Shown here in pieces: positions 21,484-29,947 of a DNA stretch of 39,605 nt. Where the stretch lies: positions 1 to 39,605 of the forward strand of contig JAQTNF010000037.1 of the NCBI GenBank assembly GCA_028713995.1, given 5' to 3'. The first letter of the stretch is position 1; each line of letters starts with the position of its first letter. The translations under genes were made by a program, and so were the position numbers. Under the pieces are notes generated by a model. That model was not told the origin of the DNA. It worked only from the letters and a program-made list of their open reading frames with translations, and made no database searches. Source of the stretch: Deltaproteobacteria bacterium. Lineage in GTDB: Bacteria > Myxococcota_A > Polyangia > JAAYKL01.

Positions 21484-21715
21484 GGGAGGCGAAGCGTACC
21501 GCCGTTTTCCCGTGGCCTCAAGGTCGGGAAAGCGCTTGAAGCCGAAGGAAAACGGGAGTACGATTTGTTTCGGGTGGAAAGAGACAGGAGAAGAGTGTCG
21601 GGTGGATCGCGGCAGGCGTGATCTTGTGCAATGAGACCATAATAACGGGATATCAGCGGTCGCGAAAATAACGCTTGGAATGATTCATGAAACAAAAGGA
21701 ATGGGAGGTCATGTC

Positions 21716-22900
21716 ATGAGACGTCATGTCACGGCTCTGGGTGTTCTTGTCGCCGGCGCGTGGATGCTCTGGTCCACCTACGCCGCGGCTGCGGACAAGG
21801 TCGTCGTTTTTACGTTGGAGGAGATCAACGTCAGCCCCGGCGTGGGCCGGGCGGCCACGATCACGGTGGCCGGGGAGCTGCGATCCAGAGGATTCGAGGT
21901 CGTTGATGATCAATTGGTTGAGCAGATGCTCGCGGCCATGCAGGCCCAGGCGGCTGCGACCATGAGCGCCCCGGCGGTGCCTCCACCTCCACCTCCACCC
22001 CCGCCACCTCCGCCTCCGCCGGCCCCGGTCGGAGCCGAGCCCGCGGCAGCCGGGCAGCCCCCGGCACCTGCACCTGCCCTTGCGCCGCCCGTGGTTGCGC
22101 CCGCGCCTGCCCCGGCGGTCGTCTCTGCTCCGACGACCGTCGACAAGCTCAAGCAGGACGTGGTCCGACAACTCGGCGCGACCCACTACGTGGAGGGCTC
22201 GGTGCTGCGTTTCGGCAAGCAGATGAAGCTCAACGTCACCATGCGCACGGTCGACGGAAAGATCACGGGCAACGAGCAGATGGACGCGCGCACCGAGGAC
22301 GATCTCGCAATCGCCATCCCGCGCATCGTGGAGGCGCTCGTCACGCCCAAGACCGTGGAGGAGACGCGCAACCTCGACAACGCGACCAGGGCCGAGACCC
22401 ATCGCCTGCCCGAGCGCTTCGTCCTCGAGAAGAACTTCGGCGTCAGCATCGCCCAGTTCTTCGGGGTGACCGAGAAATCCAACTCCTACACGATCATCAA
22501 CTTCGACGGGCGCTTCGAGTTCGGCGATATCATGCTCATCATCAACGCCGGGCTCGGAATCCAGGGCAACGGCGACACGCATGCGATGCTCGACCTGGGC
22601 GGCGCCTACTACCTGCTCCACTCGGCCATCTCACCGTTCATCGGCGCGGGCGCCGGCATCTTCCTCGGCGACCGGCTCGACGTCAGGGTCTGCGAAACGG
22701 TCGGCCCCGAGAGCGATCGTTACGAAAGCTGTCACGAGCAGAACGATTCGAGCGTGGGGTGGAACGTGTTCCCGGCCGTGGGCCTGGAGTTCCTCAGGCA
22801 GTCGTCCCTCCGCGTCCACGCGGACTTCCGTTACGTGTTCATCTGGGAGGGAGATGCCTTCGGCAACGGTCCGGAGGTCATGGTGGGCATCAACTTCTGA
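21716..22900 (+). CDS. Outer-membrane protein with polyproline linker
   Basis: A 394-residue exported protein. The signal peptide ends AAA-DKVVVF. A periplasmic alpha/beta domain (about 27-75, VVVFTLEEINVSPGVGRAATITVAGELRSRGFEVV) is followed by a linker with 14 consecutive prolines and then Pro/Ala repeats. More of the periplasmic domain follows (HYVEGSVLRFGKQMKLNVTMRTVDG). A C-terminal half of amphipathic strands (FGVSIAQFFGV to VMVGINF) looks like an outer-membrane beta-barrel. The periplasmic part resembles domains that compute parameters from several regulators in myxobacterial outer-membrane proteins; the function is unknown. GGAGG seven bases before the ATG at 21716 supports that start over 21680. 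Confidence 0.7.
   Translation: MRRHVTALGVLVAGAWMLWSTYAAAADKVVVFTLEEINVSPGVGRAATITVAGELRSRGFEVVDDQLVEQMLAAMQAQAAATMSAPAVPPPPPPPPPPPPPPAPVGAEPAAAGQPPAPAPALAPPVVAPAPAPAVVSAPTTVDKLKQDVVRQLGATHYVEGSVLRFGKQMKLNVTMRTVDGKITGNEQMDARTEDDLAIAIPRIVEALVTPKTVEETRNLDNATRAETHRLPERFVLEKNFGVSIAQFFGVTEKSNSYTIINFDGRFEFGDIMLIINAGLGIQGNGDTHAMLDLGGAYYLLHSAISPFIGAGAGIFLGDRLDVRVCETVGPESDRYESCHEQNDSSVGWNVFPAVGLEFLRQSSLRVHADFRYVFIWEGDAFGNGPEVMVGINF
21980..22021 (+). repeat. Polyproline microsatellite
   Basis: Fourteen consecutive proline codons, mostly CCT, CCA and CCG in a CCWCCT-like pattern, inside the outer-membrane protein gene. Such a run is prone to length change and needs elongation factor P for efficient translation. 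Confidence 0.9.
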
Positions 22901-22917: not shown

Positions 22918-24234
22918 CTAGAACACGAACACCACGTTCACCTCGATGTTGATGAACTCGGGCAGCTCCTTCAGGTTCCCGAGCCCGTCGGGCTTGAGGT
23001 CGCCCGCCTTGTCGACGTCCATGCACTTCTCGCCCGAGTTCGTGCTCTGCGCGCCGACCAATGCGTAGGTCCTGCTGCACACGGTATTCCAGATGGGGAT
23101 CATCCATTCTCCGACGATGCCGACGGCGAAGTTGCGGATGGGGAAGATTCGCAGGCCGGCCTGCGGCGCCACGGTGAAACCGTTCATGGAGCCCACGTAA
23201 CGCTTGCCCGTATAGGAGGAGACGTCGACAGGCAGGTTCGACGTGCCGGAGGGCGCGCCCTGATTCGGATCCTGCTCCTTCTGCGCGAAGGCGAGCCAGC
23301 TCCAGCCCAGGTCCACCCCGATGAACGGATCGAGGAAGAAGCGGTTGACCGGATGGTAGCGCAGCCCCGGGTACACACCCCAGAACGCGAATGTGCGGTC
23401 CACGGTGGCCAGCGTCTGCATGTCCGTGGACTTCGGCACCTCGAAGGCGCCGCCCGCGGCGGAGATGGAGACGGCCACGTAGGAGGAGATCCGGTAGCCG
23501 ACGCGCAGCCGGCCTCCGTAGCCCATGTCGATGTTCTTGCACAGGGTGTTGCCCTGGCAGAACGACATGATGAAGCCCAGGTCCGCGAACACCCCGGTGT
23601 GGTCGAACTCGGCCCAGAAGGGTGCGCCTTCGCCGTCGTCCTTCATCTTGACGGGTCGCCTCTGGCCGGTGTCCTTCTCCTCTTGAGCCGGTTGCGTCCA
23701 CAGGGCGAGCATTCGCACGGGCGGCAGGCCCGGCGCCGGAGGCTCTTCGAAGATGGCCGAGAGGCAGGCCCGCACGGGCGGCCCCAGGTCCGCGGGCGAT
23801 CCCGGAGGCGCCGCGGCCACCGGAGCAGAGCAGCCCCGCGTATTGCCGCGTGCCGTCCTGTAGCCGATGAGCTCGAGGTGCGTGCCGCCCTCCATGCCGC
23901 GGGTGAGCTGCGGATCCACGACCATGTCGACCCCGAGCCGCGCGGCGATGAGGCGGAACTGCTCCGCCGTGGGGCGACCGCTCACGCCGAGGGCGACCGC
24001 CGCGTTCCTGGTCTCGGCCTGCAGCGTGAGGGCGATGCCCCGCTCGCGTAACGCGGCGCGGACCCCTGAGGTGATTTTGTGTAGGTCCGCCGCGTCGCCG
24101 ATGCCGCGCGCGGGAAGCACGGCGGCCGTGGACACGGCATTGTCGGCGAGGGCCTTGCTCCCGCCGAAGACGGACGCGGCCGCGAGGATGAGGACGCCAA
24201 TCCCGCGACGTCGCGATTTTCCCGCGGGGATCAT
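22918..24234 (-). CDS. Outer-membrane beta-barrel protein of the Mla operon
   Basis: A 438-residue exported protein with a signal peptide ending ALA-DNAVS. A periplasmic alpha/beta domain (about 30-135) with VSTAAVLPARGIGDAADLHKI and LGVDMVVDPQL is followed by a Pro-rich linker. A barrel-like C-terminal half (from about 205, WAEFDHTGVFADLGFIMSF to NIEVNVVFVF ending in Phe) completes it. The plan resembles that of the convergent protein at 21716-22900, so the two may be distant paralogues. Its ATG overlaps the stop of the MCE-domain gene (ATGA), making it the fourth gene of the Mla-like operon. It may be the outer-membrane partner that the MCE protein delivers lipids to or takes them from; this is inference. 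Confidence 0.7.
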   Translation of the reverse strand: MIPAGKSRRRGIGVLILAAASVFGGSKALADNAVSTAAVLPARGIGDAADLHKITSGVRAALRERGIALTLQAETRNAAVALGVSGRPTAEQFRLIAARLGVDMVVDPQLTRGMEGGTHLELIGYRTARGNTRGCSAPVAAAPPGSPADLGPPVRACLSAIFEEPPAPGLPPVRMLALWTQPAQEEKDTGQRRPVKMKDDGEGAPFWAEFDHTGVFADLGFIMSFCQGNTLCKNIDMGYGGRLRVGYRISSYVAVSISAAGGAFEVPKSTDMQTLATVDRTFAFWGVYPGLRYHPVNRFFLDPFIGVDLGWSWLAFAQKEQDPNQGAPSGTSNLPVDVSSYTGKRYVGSMNGFTVAPQAGLRIFPIRNFAVGIVGEWMIPIWNTVCSRTYALVGAQSTNSGEKCMDVDKAGDLKPDGLGNLKELPEFINIEVNVVFVF

Positions 24235-25316
24235 TTCTTGTTCATCTCTTCCTTGGCTTCCTTGGACTCCGACTCGAGCAGCCAGGTCTTCTGGAGGGCC
24301 TTGAGCACGACGACCGCCTCGCGCAGGGTGGTCATCATCTCGCGGGTGAGCGTGGGGATCTCCGGCCCGATGCGGGCCATCTGATCGGCGAGCACGGCCA
24401 TGTTGTCCACGAGCTTCTGCAGCTTCTCGGCGTCCGTGAGCTTCTCGACCGCGGTCAGCATGCGGTCCATGCGACCGTCGTTGAGCAGCTTGTCGGTGCC
24501 GATGAGCGTGCCCTGCAGGTGCCCATCGGCCATGAGGACGTCGAGTTTCCCGAGGACGTCGTCGAGGCGGGTCATGAGCTGATCGGCGCGCTCTGGCTCG
24601 AACGCCACCGCCATGGCGCGCAGGGCCTTGTGCGTGTACGGATCGTTGAAGGTCCTGTCCATGCCGTGCATGGCGTTCAAGGCGCTCGGGTCGTTCAGGA
24701 TTTTCGAGAGCGGCTCGTCGATCCTGCCGATGAGGCCGTTCATCTTCTCCATGGTGGGCCCGAGCTGATCGAACGCGAGCACCATGCGTTCGAGCCGGTC
24801 ATTCTCCTCGAGCTTGGTGAGCATGATCTCGAGGGCCGACACGGCGCGATCCATGGTCTTCATGTAGACGCCGAGATCGATCGTCGACACGGCGTCGAGC
24901 AAATCCACGGGCTCGTCCGCGGGCAGGAGGGCGCCCGCGGGCAGGGGCGATCCCGGCTTGTCCCCGGTCACGAGCTCGATGCGTTTCTCGCCGATGCCGA
25001 GCAGCCTGCGCACGACGGCCTTGGAGCCCGCGCGCACGCGGTGCGAGTGCTTGCTGTCCACGAGGAGCTCCATGTCGATGCGGTTGTCCGGCATGATCGA
25101 GAGATCGCCCACCTCGCCCACGTTGACGCCCGAGAGCAGCACGGGCGAGCCCGAGCGCAGCCCCTCGCCGCGCATCACGTGGGAGTGGAACGCCACCTGG
25201 GGGCGGAACCACCGATTCTGGACCGCGGCGCCGGCTACGAAAAGGATCACGAGCAGGATCGCGGCGAGCAAGAAGAGGCCCGCCGCACGCTCGCGGTAGG
25301 ACAGGTAGATCTTCAA
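24231..25316 (-). CDS. mlaD: MlaD-type MCE lipid-binding protein
   Basis: A 361-residue protein anchored by one N-terminal membrane helix (about 10-32, AGLFLLAAILLVILFVAGAAV). One MCE domain (about 37-115) follows, with VMRGEGLRSGSPVLLSGVNVGEVGDL and GIGEKRIELVTG. A long helical C-terminal part (about 150-345) contains repeated Met- and Asp-rich helices. MCE proteins form hexameric lipid channels in the periplasm working with MlaE and MlaF. The start is a TTG at 25316 that overlaps the ATPase-like gene's stop (TTGA) and has GGGAG six bases upstream. A longer ATG-initiated frame from 25388 would only add shadow sequence. Confidence 0.85.
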   Translation of the reverse strand: MKIYLSYRERAAGLFLLAAILLVILFVAGAAVQNRWFRPQVAFHSHVMRGEGLRSGSPVLLSGVNVGEVGDLSIMPDNRIDMELLVDSKHSHRVRAGSKAVVRRLLGIGEKRIELVTGDKPGSPLPAGALLPADEPVDLLDAVSTIDLGVYMKTMDRAVSALEIMLTKLEENDRLERMVLAFDQLGPTMEKMNGLIGRIDEPLSKILNDPSALNAMHGMDRTFNDPYTHKALRAMAVAFEPERADQLMTRLDDVLGKLDVLMADGHLQGTLIGTDKLLNDGRMDRMLTAVEKLTDAEKLQKLVDNMAVLADQMARIGPEIPTLTREMMTTLREAVVVLKALQKTWLLESESKEAKEEMNKK

Positions 25317-26044
25317 GTGTTTCTCCCCCGGGCCGCGCCCGGAACCTGAGAGTAGCTCACGACGACGCCCTCGTGCTCCTTGAACCATGCCTCAAACCCG
25401 GGATTTTGGCGAGGAAGACAGACCGCGGCCCCGATCCGGCCGCCCAGCGCCCGCTCGACGAGCCTCGTCCAGCCGACACCGCGGCCCCGGTCCATCTCGA
25501 AGTCGCCGAGCCCCTCGAGCACGAGCCAGCCCGGCTCGAGGACGAGCGCCCGCGCCAGGCAGGCGCGCCAGCGGGTCGCCCCGTCCATCTGGTGCGGATA
25601 GAGGTCGGCCACGCGCTCGAGCGCAAACTCCACAAGAGCGCTCTCCACCGTGTCGCTCTCATGGGCGGCCGTGAGCTTCCGGTGCACGGACACGGGCAGC
25701 GTCAGGTTCTCGCGCACCGTACGGTTCGAGAGCAGCCCGCCGTAGCCGTGCACGAACCCGATGCGCGCACGCGTGCGCTGGCGCATGGCGTAGTCAGTGC
25801 CATAGATGTCGACGCCCAAAATCTCCACCCTGCCGCGCTCCGGCTCCGTCAGGCTCGCGAGCGCGCGCGCCAGGTGCACGGAAGGGTCGACGACCGGCTC
25901 GGCTTGGCCCGGAACCAGGGCGACCCACTCGCCCTCGGCCACGGTGAGCGGCGGCACGGACCACGTGTCCGGCCCGGCCTCGAACCTGAGCCCGTCCGCG
26001 AGCTTGAGGGCGAGGGCGTCCTCCCTGCGCGCCGTGCCCGTCAC
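25313..26044 (-). CDS. Degenerate MlaF-like ABC ATPase subunit
   Basis: A 243-residue protein in the ATPase position of an Mla operon, with the overall ABC fold but none of the catalytic motifs. The Walker A site reads VPGQAEPVV (44-52), lacking GKS/T. The signature motif is replaced by HQMDGATRWRACLARAL (151-167). The Walker B/Glu site reads WLVLEGLGDFEMD (173-185), and the switch histidine is missing (VCLPRQNP). The Q-loop/D-loop neighbourhood is still recognisable (GFVHGYGGLLSNRTVRENLTLPV, like MlaF's phenylalanine-rich helix). The frame is intact and coupled at both ends (GTGA at 26044, TTGA at 25316), so it is an expressed pseudo-ATPase rather than a decaying gene. ATP hydrolysis is not expected. 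Confidence 0.75.
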   Translation of the reverse strand: MTGTARREDALALKLADGLRFEAGPDTWSVPPLTVAEGEWVALVPGQAEPVVDPSVHLARALASLTEPERGRVEILGVDIYGTDYAMRQRTRARIGFVHGYGGLLSNRTVRENLTLPVSVHRKLTAAHESDTVESALVEFALERVADLYPHQMDGATRWRACLARALVLEPGWLVLEGLGDFEMDRGRGVGWTRLVERALGGRIGAAVCLPRQNPGFEAWFKEHEGVVVSYSQVPGAARGRNT

Positions 26045-26862
26045 AGGACGCCCCCGAGCAGGCGGCCCGTGCCGGACGAGAGCACGGTCGTGAGCGAGAC
26101 GGTCGCGTGCAGCATGACGAGGAACACCACCGAGACGAGGGCTGCTCGCGAAACGGCCACCGGCACCTCGGTCGGCGAGCGATCCACGCCGAGCCCGTGG
26201 TAGCAGGCGATGAGGAACACGCCCACGCCGCCGACCATGATCTTGAGCGAGAAGGCGACGATGTCCGCGGGCGAGACGGCCGAGAACATGGCGCTCGCGA
26301 AGAGCTTGAACGGGATGGCCACGAGCAGCCACCCGATGGCGAAGCCGCCCAAGAGCGCCACGGCGTTGAAGAGCACGTTGAGCGCGAACAGGGAGAGCAG
26401 GCCGCCCACGATGCGCGGCGTGACGAGCAGCCGGATGGGGGAGATGCCCATCACCTCGAGGGCCTCGATCTCGCGCTGCACACGCATCACCCCGAGCTCG
26501 GCCGCGATGGCGGTCACCGAGCGCACAATCACCACGATGCCGGTGAGGAGCGGAGCCACGTCGCGCAGCACCACGAGCGTGACCATCTGGCCCAGGCTCT
26601 CGGCGCCCGAGAGCGAGCCGATGCCGCCCACGCCCTCGACCACTGCGAAGGCGCCCACGGCGAGCGCCAGCACGATGACCGGGCCAGCCGCCTGCACGCC
26701 GGTGAAGTAGATCTGGCGCAGTACCTCGCGGCCGAACGCGCGCTGCCCGAACGCCCGGTCTGTCCACATGACCTTGACGGAGAGGTAGAGCAGCCCGAGG
26801 AGCAGGAGCGTGTAGCGGACGAAGGCGACGAACGCCGCGCCGAGGCTGTCGATGAAGCGCAC
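26041..26862 (-). CDS. mlaE: MlaE-type permease
   Basis: A 273-residue inner-membrane permease of the MlaE/YrbE family. Its hallmark cytoplasmic coupling segment is VQREIEALEVMGISPIRLLVTPRIVGG, with about five or six helices around it and a conserved loop (QMVTLVVLRDVAPLLTGIVVIVRS). It carries phospholipid between the inner membrane and the MCE channel. The GTG start at 26862 follows GAGGAG and gives a normal N-terminus (MRFIDSLGAAFVAFVRYTLLL); the frame upstream to 27189 is not family-like. It is the first gene of the leftward operon MlaE, pseudo-ATPase, MlaD, outer-membrane protein. Confidence 0.85.
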   Translation of the reverse strand: MRFIDSLGAAFVAFVRYTLLLLGLLYLSVKVMWTDRAFGQRAFGREVLRQIYFTGVQAAGPVIVLALAVGAFAVVEGVGGIGSLSGAESLGQMVTLVVLRDVAPLLTGIVVIVRSVTAIAAELGVMRVQREIEALEVMGISPIRLLVTPRIVGGLLSLFALNVLFNAVALLGGFAIGWLLVAIPFKLFASAMFSAVSPADIVAFSLKIMVGGVGVFLIACYHGLGVDRSPTEVPVAVSRAALVSVVFLVMLHATVSLTTVLSSGTGRLLGGVL

Positions 26863-29275: not shown

Positions 29276-29289
<14 letters not shown>

Positions 29290-29947
29290 CGCCGGCCGGG
29301 GGCGGCCGCAGGGAGGCCCGCTCGGCCTTGCGCTTCCTGCGCTTGTAGCCTCGCAAGAGGAGCAGCGCGACGACCGTGAGGACGAGCGCGCCGGCGACGA
29401 CGCCGATGGCGATGTGGTACTCGCGCAGGACGTGCTGCGCGCGCGCGAAGCCCTCCTCGGTGAGCAGGCTCGCGCCCAGGAACCAGCCCAGCAGCAAGCC
29501 AACCGGCGCGGACCCGATGAGCGCCAGGCTGTCCGCCACGAGGAAGCGGGGCCACTTCACGCCCATGCTGCCCGCCACGAAGAAGGCGCTCACGCGCAGC
29601 CCGGGGAGGAACCGCGCGATGACCACGGCCCACGTGCCGCGCTTGTAGAACAGGTAGCGCGCCTTGCGCATGCGCTTGGGGTTGAGCAGGAAGCGCGCCA
29701 AGCGGCTCTGGTACAGGTGGTTGCCGAGGAACCGCCCCCCGCCGAAGGCCAGCGCGTCGCCGCCGATGACCGCGAGGTAGCACAGGACCAGCATGGGCGC
29801 GACCTCGAGGTGGCCCATGGAGGCGGCCGCCCCGGCGGCCATGAACGTGACCTCCTCCGGGACCGGAAAGCCGAGGCCGCTCAGGAACAGGATGACGAAG
29901 ATGTTCCAGTACGAGACGGAATTGATGATCCACTGAATCGTTTCCAC
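29276..29947 (-). CDS. DedA-family membrane protein
   Basis: A 223-residue inner-membrane protein with the DedA/SNARE-associated pattern: GLGFPVPEEVTFMAAGAAA (conserved acidic residue after a PVP turn), a GGDALAFGGGRFLG segment, and ARFLPGLRVSAFFVAG with the family arginine. DedA proteins are proton-dependent lipid transporters or flippases (undecaprenyl phosphate, phosphatidylethanolamine) needed for envelope integrity. A basic C-terminal tail (YKRRKRKAERASLR) is cytoplasmic. The gene overlaps htrA by 14 bases, tail to tail, with no terminator between them. Confidence 0.85.

Follow-up and report, generated by a model that had tools for sequence, protein, structure and literature searches.

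A conserved MlaF-type subunit with a degenerate ATP site, encoded between mlaE and mlaD

Can a lipid transporter of the MlaEFD type be kept once its ATPase subunit has lost the residues of catalysis, and how would such a transporter work? The question is raised by a locus within a stretch of 39,605 nt, referred to here as the window, which encodes an MlaE permease, a degenerate MlaF-type NBD (pseudoF) and an MlaD protein:

26041–26862, minus strand: mlaE, permease, 273 aa, member of a cassette-specific MlaE clade
25313–26044, minus strand: pseudoF, degenerate MlaF-type NBD, 243 aa, in the gene order mlaE–pseudoF–mlaD
24231–25316, minus strand: mlaD, long-type MCE protein, 361 aa
26041–26044, minus strand: mlaE stop codon overlapping the pseudoF start, 4 nt, GTGA
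25313–25316, minus strand: pseudoF stop codon overlapping the mlaD start, 4 nt, TTGA
22918–24234, minus strand: candidate outer-membrane beta-barrel protein gene (PF13505, 19.3 bits, below the cut-off of 28.7)

The pseudoF frame begins with GTG at 26044 and has no internal stop; with the 4-nt overlaps on both sides, this bears out the description in a first-pass annotation of an intact gene tightly coupled to mlaE and mlaD. MlaE and MlaD score above the cut-offs of their Pfam families (172.4 bits against PF02405, cut-off 22.5; 41.1 bits against PF02470, cut-off 25.1) and below those of the NCBIfam models TIGR00056 (123.7 bits, cut-off 212.2) and TIGR04430 (28.2 bits, cut-off 135), respectively. 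MlaD consists of an N-terminal TM helix, an MCE domain (residues 49–118) and about 220 aa predicted to be helical, and its monomer model is usable only to about residue 140 (pLDDT 58, poor beyond the MCE domain). The gene at 22918–24234 overlaps the mlaD stop by 4 nt and is possibly a fourth operon gene in the window genome only, comparison with 17 other loci having shown no conserved counterpart. When ORFs from 18 loci were clustered, the widely shared ones were mlaE, pseudoF, mlaD and antisense shadows; a conserved outer-membrane partner gene was rejected as a general feature, there being no common gene after mlaD.

Around the cassette, the 22918–24234 gene converges with a neighbour at 21680–22900 (plus strand), and both are weak PF13505 matches below the cut-off. 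A VTT/DedA-type membrane protein is encoded at 29279–29947 (minus strand), and the product of a gene after mlaD in a distant cassette (L101:7916–8551, plus strand) resembles it by eye. The window gave no tRNA and no RNA family matches.

Alignment with canonical MlaFs locates the changes in pseudoF:

Former Walker A, about residues 45–56: GxxGxGK[ST] replaced by PGQAEPVVDPSV
Former Q-loop, residues 99–100: FQ replaced by HG
Former signature, residues 153–160: LSGG replaced by MDGA
Former Walker B, residues 173–178: DE replaced by EG
Former H-loop, residues 209–212: SHD replaced by LPR

All five motifs of the catalytic ABC ATPase set are thus absent. The first-pass annotation had listed Walker A, the signature, the Walker B Glu and the switch His as replaced; the alignment agrees and adds the Q-loop Gln. 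Pfam ABC_tran (PF00005) still recognizes the protein at 35.5 bits (cut-off 25), and the P-loop end is missing from the match, which covers only positions 27–132 of the 137 in the profile. Against the NCBIfam MlaF model PRK11831 pseudoF scores 33.9 bits, below the cut-off of 441; the same genome's other three MlaF-type NBDs fall short of it as well (146–176 bits), which indicates that this model is narrow.

The loss is shared by every copy of pseudoF that we aligned. Walker A, the Q-loop Gln and the signature are each intact in 0/24 copies and the Walker B DE in 0/23, and the switch His is present in a single copy of 23 (L110), where it is probably coincidental; the last two counts are over 23 copies because L117 is cut by a contig end and lacks both of these motif regions. 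As a control, canonical MlaFs adjoining MlaE have Walker A in 33/33 cases and all five motifs in 25/33, and all five are found in 20 of 21 other MlaF-like NBDs (32 of the 53 ‘other ABC’ rows were dropped from this table as not MlaF-like). Each composite ABC site pairs the Walker A of one NBD with the signature of its partner. Having neither, pseudoF would form no complete site in homodimers or in mixtures with a normal MlaF, and with no complete site possible its NBD almost certainly hydrolyses no ATP, a conclusion from motif content in which our confidence is high.

How widespread is this protein? A protein search covered 59 genomes, namely the window genome, 13 others of its family (f1) and 45 from other families of the class. 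Orthologs were found in 11 of the 13 f1 genomes, at 43–65% identity, and the 45 genomes of other families yielded only ordinary ABC matches of at most 63.9 bits. The two f1 genomes without pseudoF (G012 and G013) are draft assemblies whose congeners carry it. Class-wide, among 289 genomes including 14 of f1, 12 genomes gave matches of at least 314 bits, all of them f1, and beyond these there was no match above 98.7 bits. A search of 377 genomes of the phylum (E ≤ 1e-30) returned 3 f1 genomes and 11 from a second family, f30, which belongs to another class of the phylum and has pseudoF in 11 of its 22 genomes. Among the f30 genomes, G232 has a 98-bit C-terminal fragment. In one assembly, pseudoF is apparently split across two contigs (G204:C59, first part, 207.5 bits; G204:C56, last part, 92.4 bits).

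A scan of reference genomes with two peptide patterns gave 13 loci, of which 12 are real and come from MAGs titled Myxococcota, Myxococcales or Deltaproteobacteria. Eleven are f1 copies; the twelfth, L101 (YD0425bin50), is further removed, with 33–34% identity. The f30 copies do not appear in this listing, so the scan sets no bound on the distribution of pseudoF. The thirteenth locus (L103) was rejected as an ordinary ABC protein, and a search of 398 genomes from the phylum of its own genome (G591, titled Kiloniellaceae) found nothing at E ≤ 1e-35, a weak negative from a set without a known positive.

Wherever pseudoF was found, its neighbours were found too. All 24 cassettes include mlaE and 23 include mlaD; in the remaining one the contig ends too early. 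With start codons picked as those nearest to the start of the alignment, mlaE and pseudoF overlap by 1–7 nt in 22/24 cassettes and by exactly 4 nt in 20; the exceptions are L101 (+135) and G129/L124 (+2193), where the genes are 2.2 kb apart.

Purifying selection on pseudoF is visible at the codon level in the one pair of congeners that is measurable (L036/L037), with a dN/dS of 0.075 by NG86 and 0.062 by YN00, or about 0.07. The same pair gives 0.049 and 0.032 for mlaE and 0.186 and 0.121 for mlaD. Values for pseudoF in the remaining pairs (0.089–0.234, NG86) are near synonymous saturation and are not relied on. On these sequence comparisons, pseudoF is a real, old and selected pseudo-NBD. The first-pass annotation had proposed examining relatives for conservation of the degenerate motifs; apart from the stray His, the motifs are gone throughout the 24 copies, and the low dN/dS accompanies that loss.

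By structural prediction, the NBD fold is kept. An AlphaFold2 model of pseudoF built with 13 sequences has a pLDDT of 90.5 and a pTM of 0.87, and its best PDB matches in Foldseek are E. coli MlaF structures (6xgz and 6xgy, E about 2e-13, 22–23% identity). VIA-align likewise places E. coli MlaF (7ch7_C) first, with Z 22.7 and an rmsd of 2.4 over 215 residues, a score tied with that of LolD and close to those of other NBDs. A sequence-profile comparison gave 7d06_B and 6z5u_K as the best solved relatives. Both are annotated there simply as ATP-binding proteins of ABC transporters, and the Foldseek result lists 7d06 under the title Acinetobacter MlaFEDB. Conservation is uneven along the chain. 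Over 23 aligned copies, the highest mean information lies in residues 94–122 (3.40 bits), compared with 3.27 bits for the former signature stretch, 2.10 bits for the former P-loop and a mean of 2.51 bits over residues 8–236, and residues in common with canonical MlaF include G96, V98, L104, N113, P117 and H121. Residues 94–122 lie at the Q-loop, which we take to be the part of ABC proteins that faces the permease. The contrast between this stretch and the former P-loop therefore suggests that the expected docking side has been held and the P-loop released, and we infer that residues 94–122 dock on MlaE.

Phylogenetic trees point to a single origin of the pseudoF cassettes. The MlaEs of 23 cassettes form one clade (support 100/98). 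In the NBD tree the pseudoFs also form one clade, sister to two MlaFs of a third family, f11 (L147 and L150; 98/97), and with the motif columns removed they again form one clade (100/99). The MlaE and NBD trees are unrooted and the pseudo-cassette branches are long. Cassette MlaEs from f30 are weakly nested within f1 in one MlaE tree and share an unresolved fork with f1 in another, and the f30 pseudoFs are separate from f1 in the NBD tree.

The f11 relatives are themselves unusual. Among 192 relatives of G505, six f11 genomes have an operon with a half-degenerate MlaF:

L147, L150, L198, L199, L200, L201: half-degenerate f11 MlaFs

These proteins keep Walker A and the Walker B Asp in 6/6 cases and the switch His in 4/6, and have lost the signature and the Q-loop Gln in 6/6, LSGG having become VNAS, LTAT, ANAS, LDDS or LDES. 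To judge from these motifs, they probably bind ATP without hydrolysing it. Their operons are sister to the pseudo-cassettes in both MlaE and NBD trees. A second MlaE tree puts the pseudo-cassette MlaEs and five from half-degenerate operons on one side of a branch (100/98), and the NBD tree without motif columns does the same for 24 pseudo and 6 half-degenerate rows (100/99.9); long branches set the pseudoFs and half-degenerate MlaFs apart from all other NBDs in the unrooted tree. The two groups share the loss of the signature and the Q-loop Gln, whereas Walker A and the Walker B Asp persist only in the half-degenerate MlaFs. Provided that the trees are rooted within the canonical rows, the sequences would form an ordered series from ordinary MlaF through half-degenerate MlaF to dead NBD.

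The cassette is not the only Mla equipment of these cells. The window genome (G000) encodes four MlaEs, three MlaD matches and three further MlaF-type NBDs, all with Walker A, so the search for another MlaF that the first-pass annotation had recommended has a positive answer. Two of the NBDs adjoin an MlaE (L015 on contig C108, L024 on C149); the third, L022 (G000:C9:66334–66783), is unlinked and has all five motifs. One MlaE, L120 (G000:C153:5200–5829), has no ATPase gene nearby. L022 and L120 share neighbours from family f5 in the trees, less well resolved on the MlaE side in a second tree, and this suggests that the two form a split operon. All f1 genomes with the cassette carry at least one MlaE in addition to its own, so ATP-driven Mla activity in the cell probably does not depend on the cassette.

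Other f1 MlaFs vary as well. In one type (L118 of G000:C108, L127, L130 and L132), Walker A and LSGG are intact, the switch His is Ser in 4/4 and Walker B is changed in 3/4 (Glu to Asp), with the Walker B Asp also changed to Gly in G000. In a third f1 type (L119 of G000:C149, L128, L131 and L133), LGPG replaces LSGG in 4/4. In this family the catalytic motifs of MlaF seem, in general, to be loosely kept.

What, then, would the cassette do? Compared with MlaF of the Mla system (MlaFEDB), pseudoF is alike in fold, in its operon with mlaE and mlaD, in the residues flanking the Q-loop and in an LP...H motif, and differs by the loss of all five ATP-site motifs. The layout resembles MlaEFD of Veillonella parvula, which has three genes and a long MlaD (long-version average 374 aa, 361 aa here), with stop/start codon overlaps reported for mlaF and mlaD (PMC10665443). 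The same source describes a V. parvula MlaF close to those of model diderms, unlike the dead one here, and an MlaD with a C-terminal beta-barrel, whereas none is seen in the cassette MlaD, whose model is poor past about residue 140. It also gives long-MlaD MlaEFD systems as common and one as modelled as a transenvelope bridge (PMC10665443). For the short-MlaD Mla system, a review (PMC10212509) describes MlaE without ATP as open towards the MlaD channel, and lipid transfer from MlaD to MlaC in vitro as spontaneous without ATP and blocked by hydrolysis. Genetic and biochemical work covered there favours retrograde, ATP-dependent transport, with no anterograde role in Acinetobacter (PMC10212509).

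By analogy with these systems, we lean towards reading the cassette as an MlaEFD-type, long-MlaD lipid transporter that is not self-powered by ATP and in which the dead NBD serves as a structural clamp. A pseudoF dimer would cap the MlaE dimer without ATP-driven cycling; MlaE would therefore be held near its nucleotide-free, outward-open state, its cavity continuous with the MlaD pore. Affinity or a gradient would drive lipids along MlaD, most likely from the inner to the outer membrane, since ATP hydrolysis suppresses the spontaneous MlaD-to-MlaC transfer in Mla. ATP-driven work would fall to the ordinary MlaEF pairs of that genome. Passivity and direction of transport are both inferred from that analogy. 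More tentatively, the motor may have been dismantled stepwise, signature and Q-loop first and Walker A last, to leave a standing, ATP-independent lipid conduit in which the dead NBD acts as a latch and keeps the permease open towards the MlaD tunnel, beside ordinary Mla systems.

The main rival, which we consider unlikely, is that the cassette is powered in trans by a canonical MlaF from elsewhere that replaces pseudoF, or pairs with it, on MlaE part of the time. Candidates exist in the window genome (L015, L024 and the complete L022), as do further MlaEs in every cassette-bearing f1 genome. The mycobacterial MceG is a precedent: its gene lies outside the mce operons, and several MCE systems are believed to share it (PMC9882608). 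However, pseudoF lacks both halves of each composite site, which weakens this reading: a mixed dimer of pseudoF and MlaF would be without a full site on both sides. Moreover, pseudoF is coupled to the cassette MlaE and under selection, and that MlaE is far from the others, canonical paralogs scoring about 50–110 bits against an f1 cassette profile and f30 cassette MlaEs about 390.

Pseudoenzymes often turn into regulators, and canonical systems coexist with the cassette, so pseudoF or the whole cassette could modulate canonical Mla and carry no lipid itself. We find this improbable: the cassette MlaE and MlaD are conserved too (mean column identity of MlaE 73%), and every pseudoF found adjoins them. 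Slightly less probable still is a remodelled pocket that binds another ligand (a lipid, a second messenger or, unusually, a nucleotide) and gates MlaE. New residues at places where catalysis was lost, E177, G180 and W192, are invariant in 23/23 aligned copies, but the former P-loop is poorly conserved overall, and the DPS motif that it has in f1 is not kept in f30. Recent decay, a pseudogene, a frameshift or a sequencing or assembly error is refuted by the present data, in which the frame is intact, orthologs are many, dN/dS is low, and 24 copies in separate genomes and independent assemblies are degenerate alike, none with the normal Walker A by which the first-pass annotation would have recognized recent decay. 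Among its own options of passive flow, powering in trans and a structural or regulatory subunit, a structural and passive role fits best and powering in trans has lost ground.

Other ABC transporters tolerate part of this loss. TAP and CFTR have one degenerate site and keep one complete composite site; they resemble pseudoF in tolerating the loss of catalytic residues from an NBD, and differ in that pseudoF forms no complete site as a homodimer or a heterodimer. We know of no ABC system in which both composite sites are lost and the NBD is under strong selection. The first-pass annotation had held that it would be new for an MCE system to be kept while hydrolysing no ATP. That was too wide: ATPase-free MCE transport as such exists in the Pqi and Let systems, whose inner-membrane partners have no ATPase domain (PMC12436622). 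PqiABC and LetAB are like the cassette in joining an MCE tunnel to an ATPase-free inner-membrane partner (PMC12436622); theirs is PqiA or LetA, that of the cassette MlaE with a relic NBD. The narrower claim stands, in that an MlaE-type system keeping a dead NBD appears to be new; a conserved but inactive MlaF within an MlaEFD cassette did not turn up in the literature searched, which was mostly open-access.

The power source of Mla and the direction in which it moves lipids are disputed, and the cassette is a natural, long-kept evolutionary experiment on both. An MlaEFD system without hydrolysis at its own NBD would mean either that one direction of flow is ATP-free or that the energy comes from elsewhere, and its half-degenerate relatives supply ordered steps of the loss.
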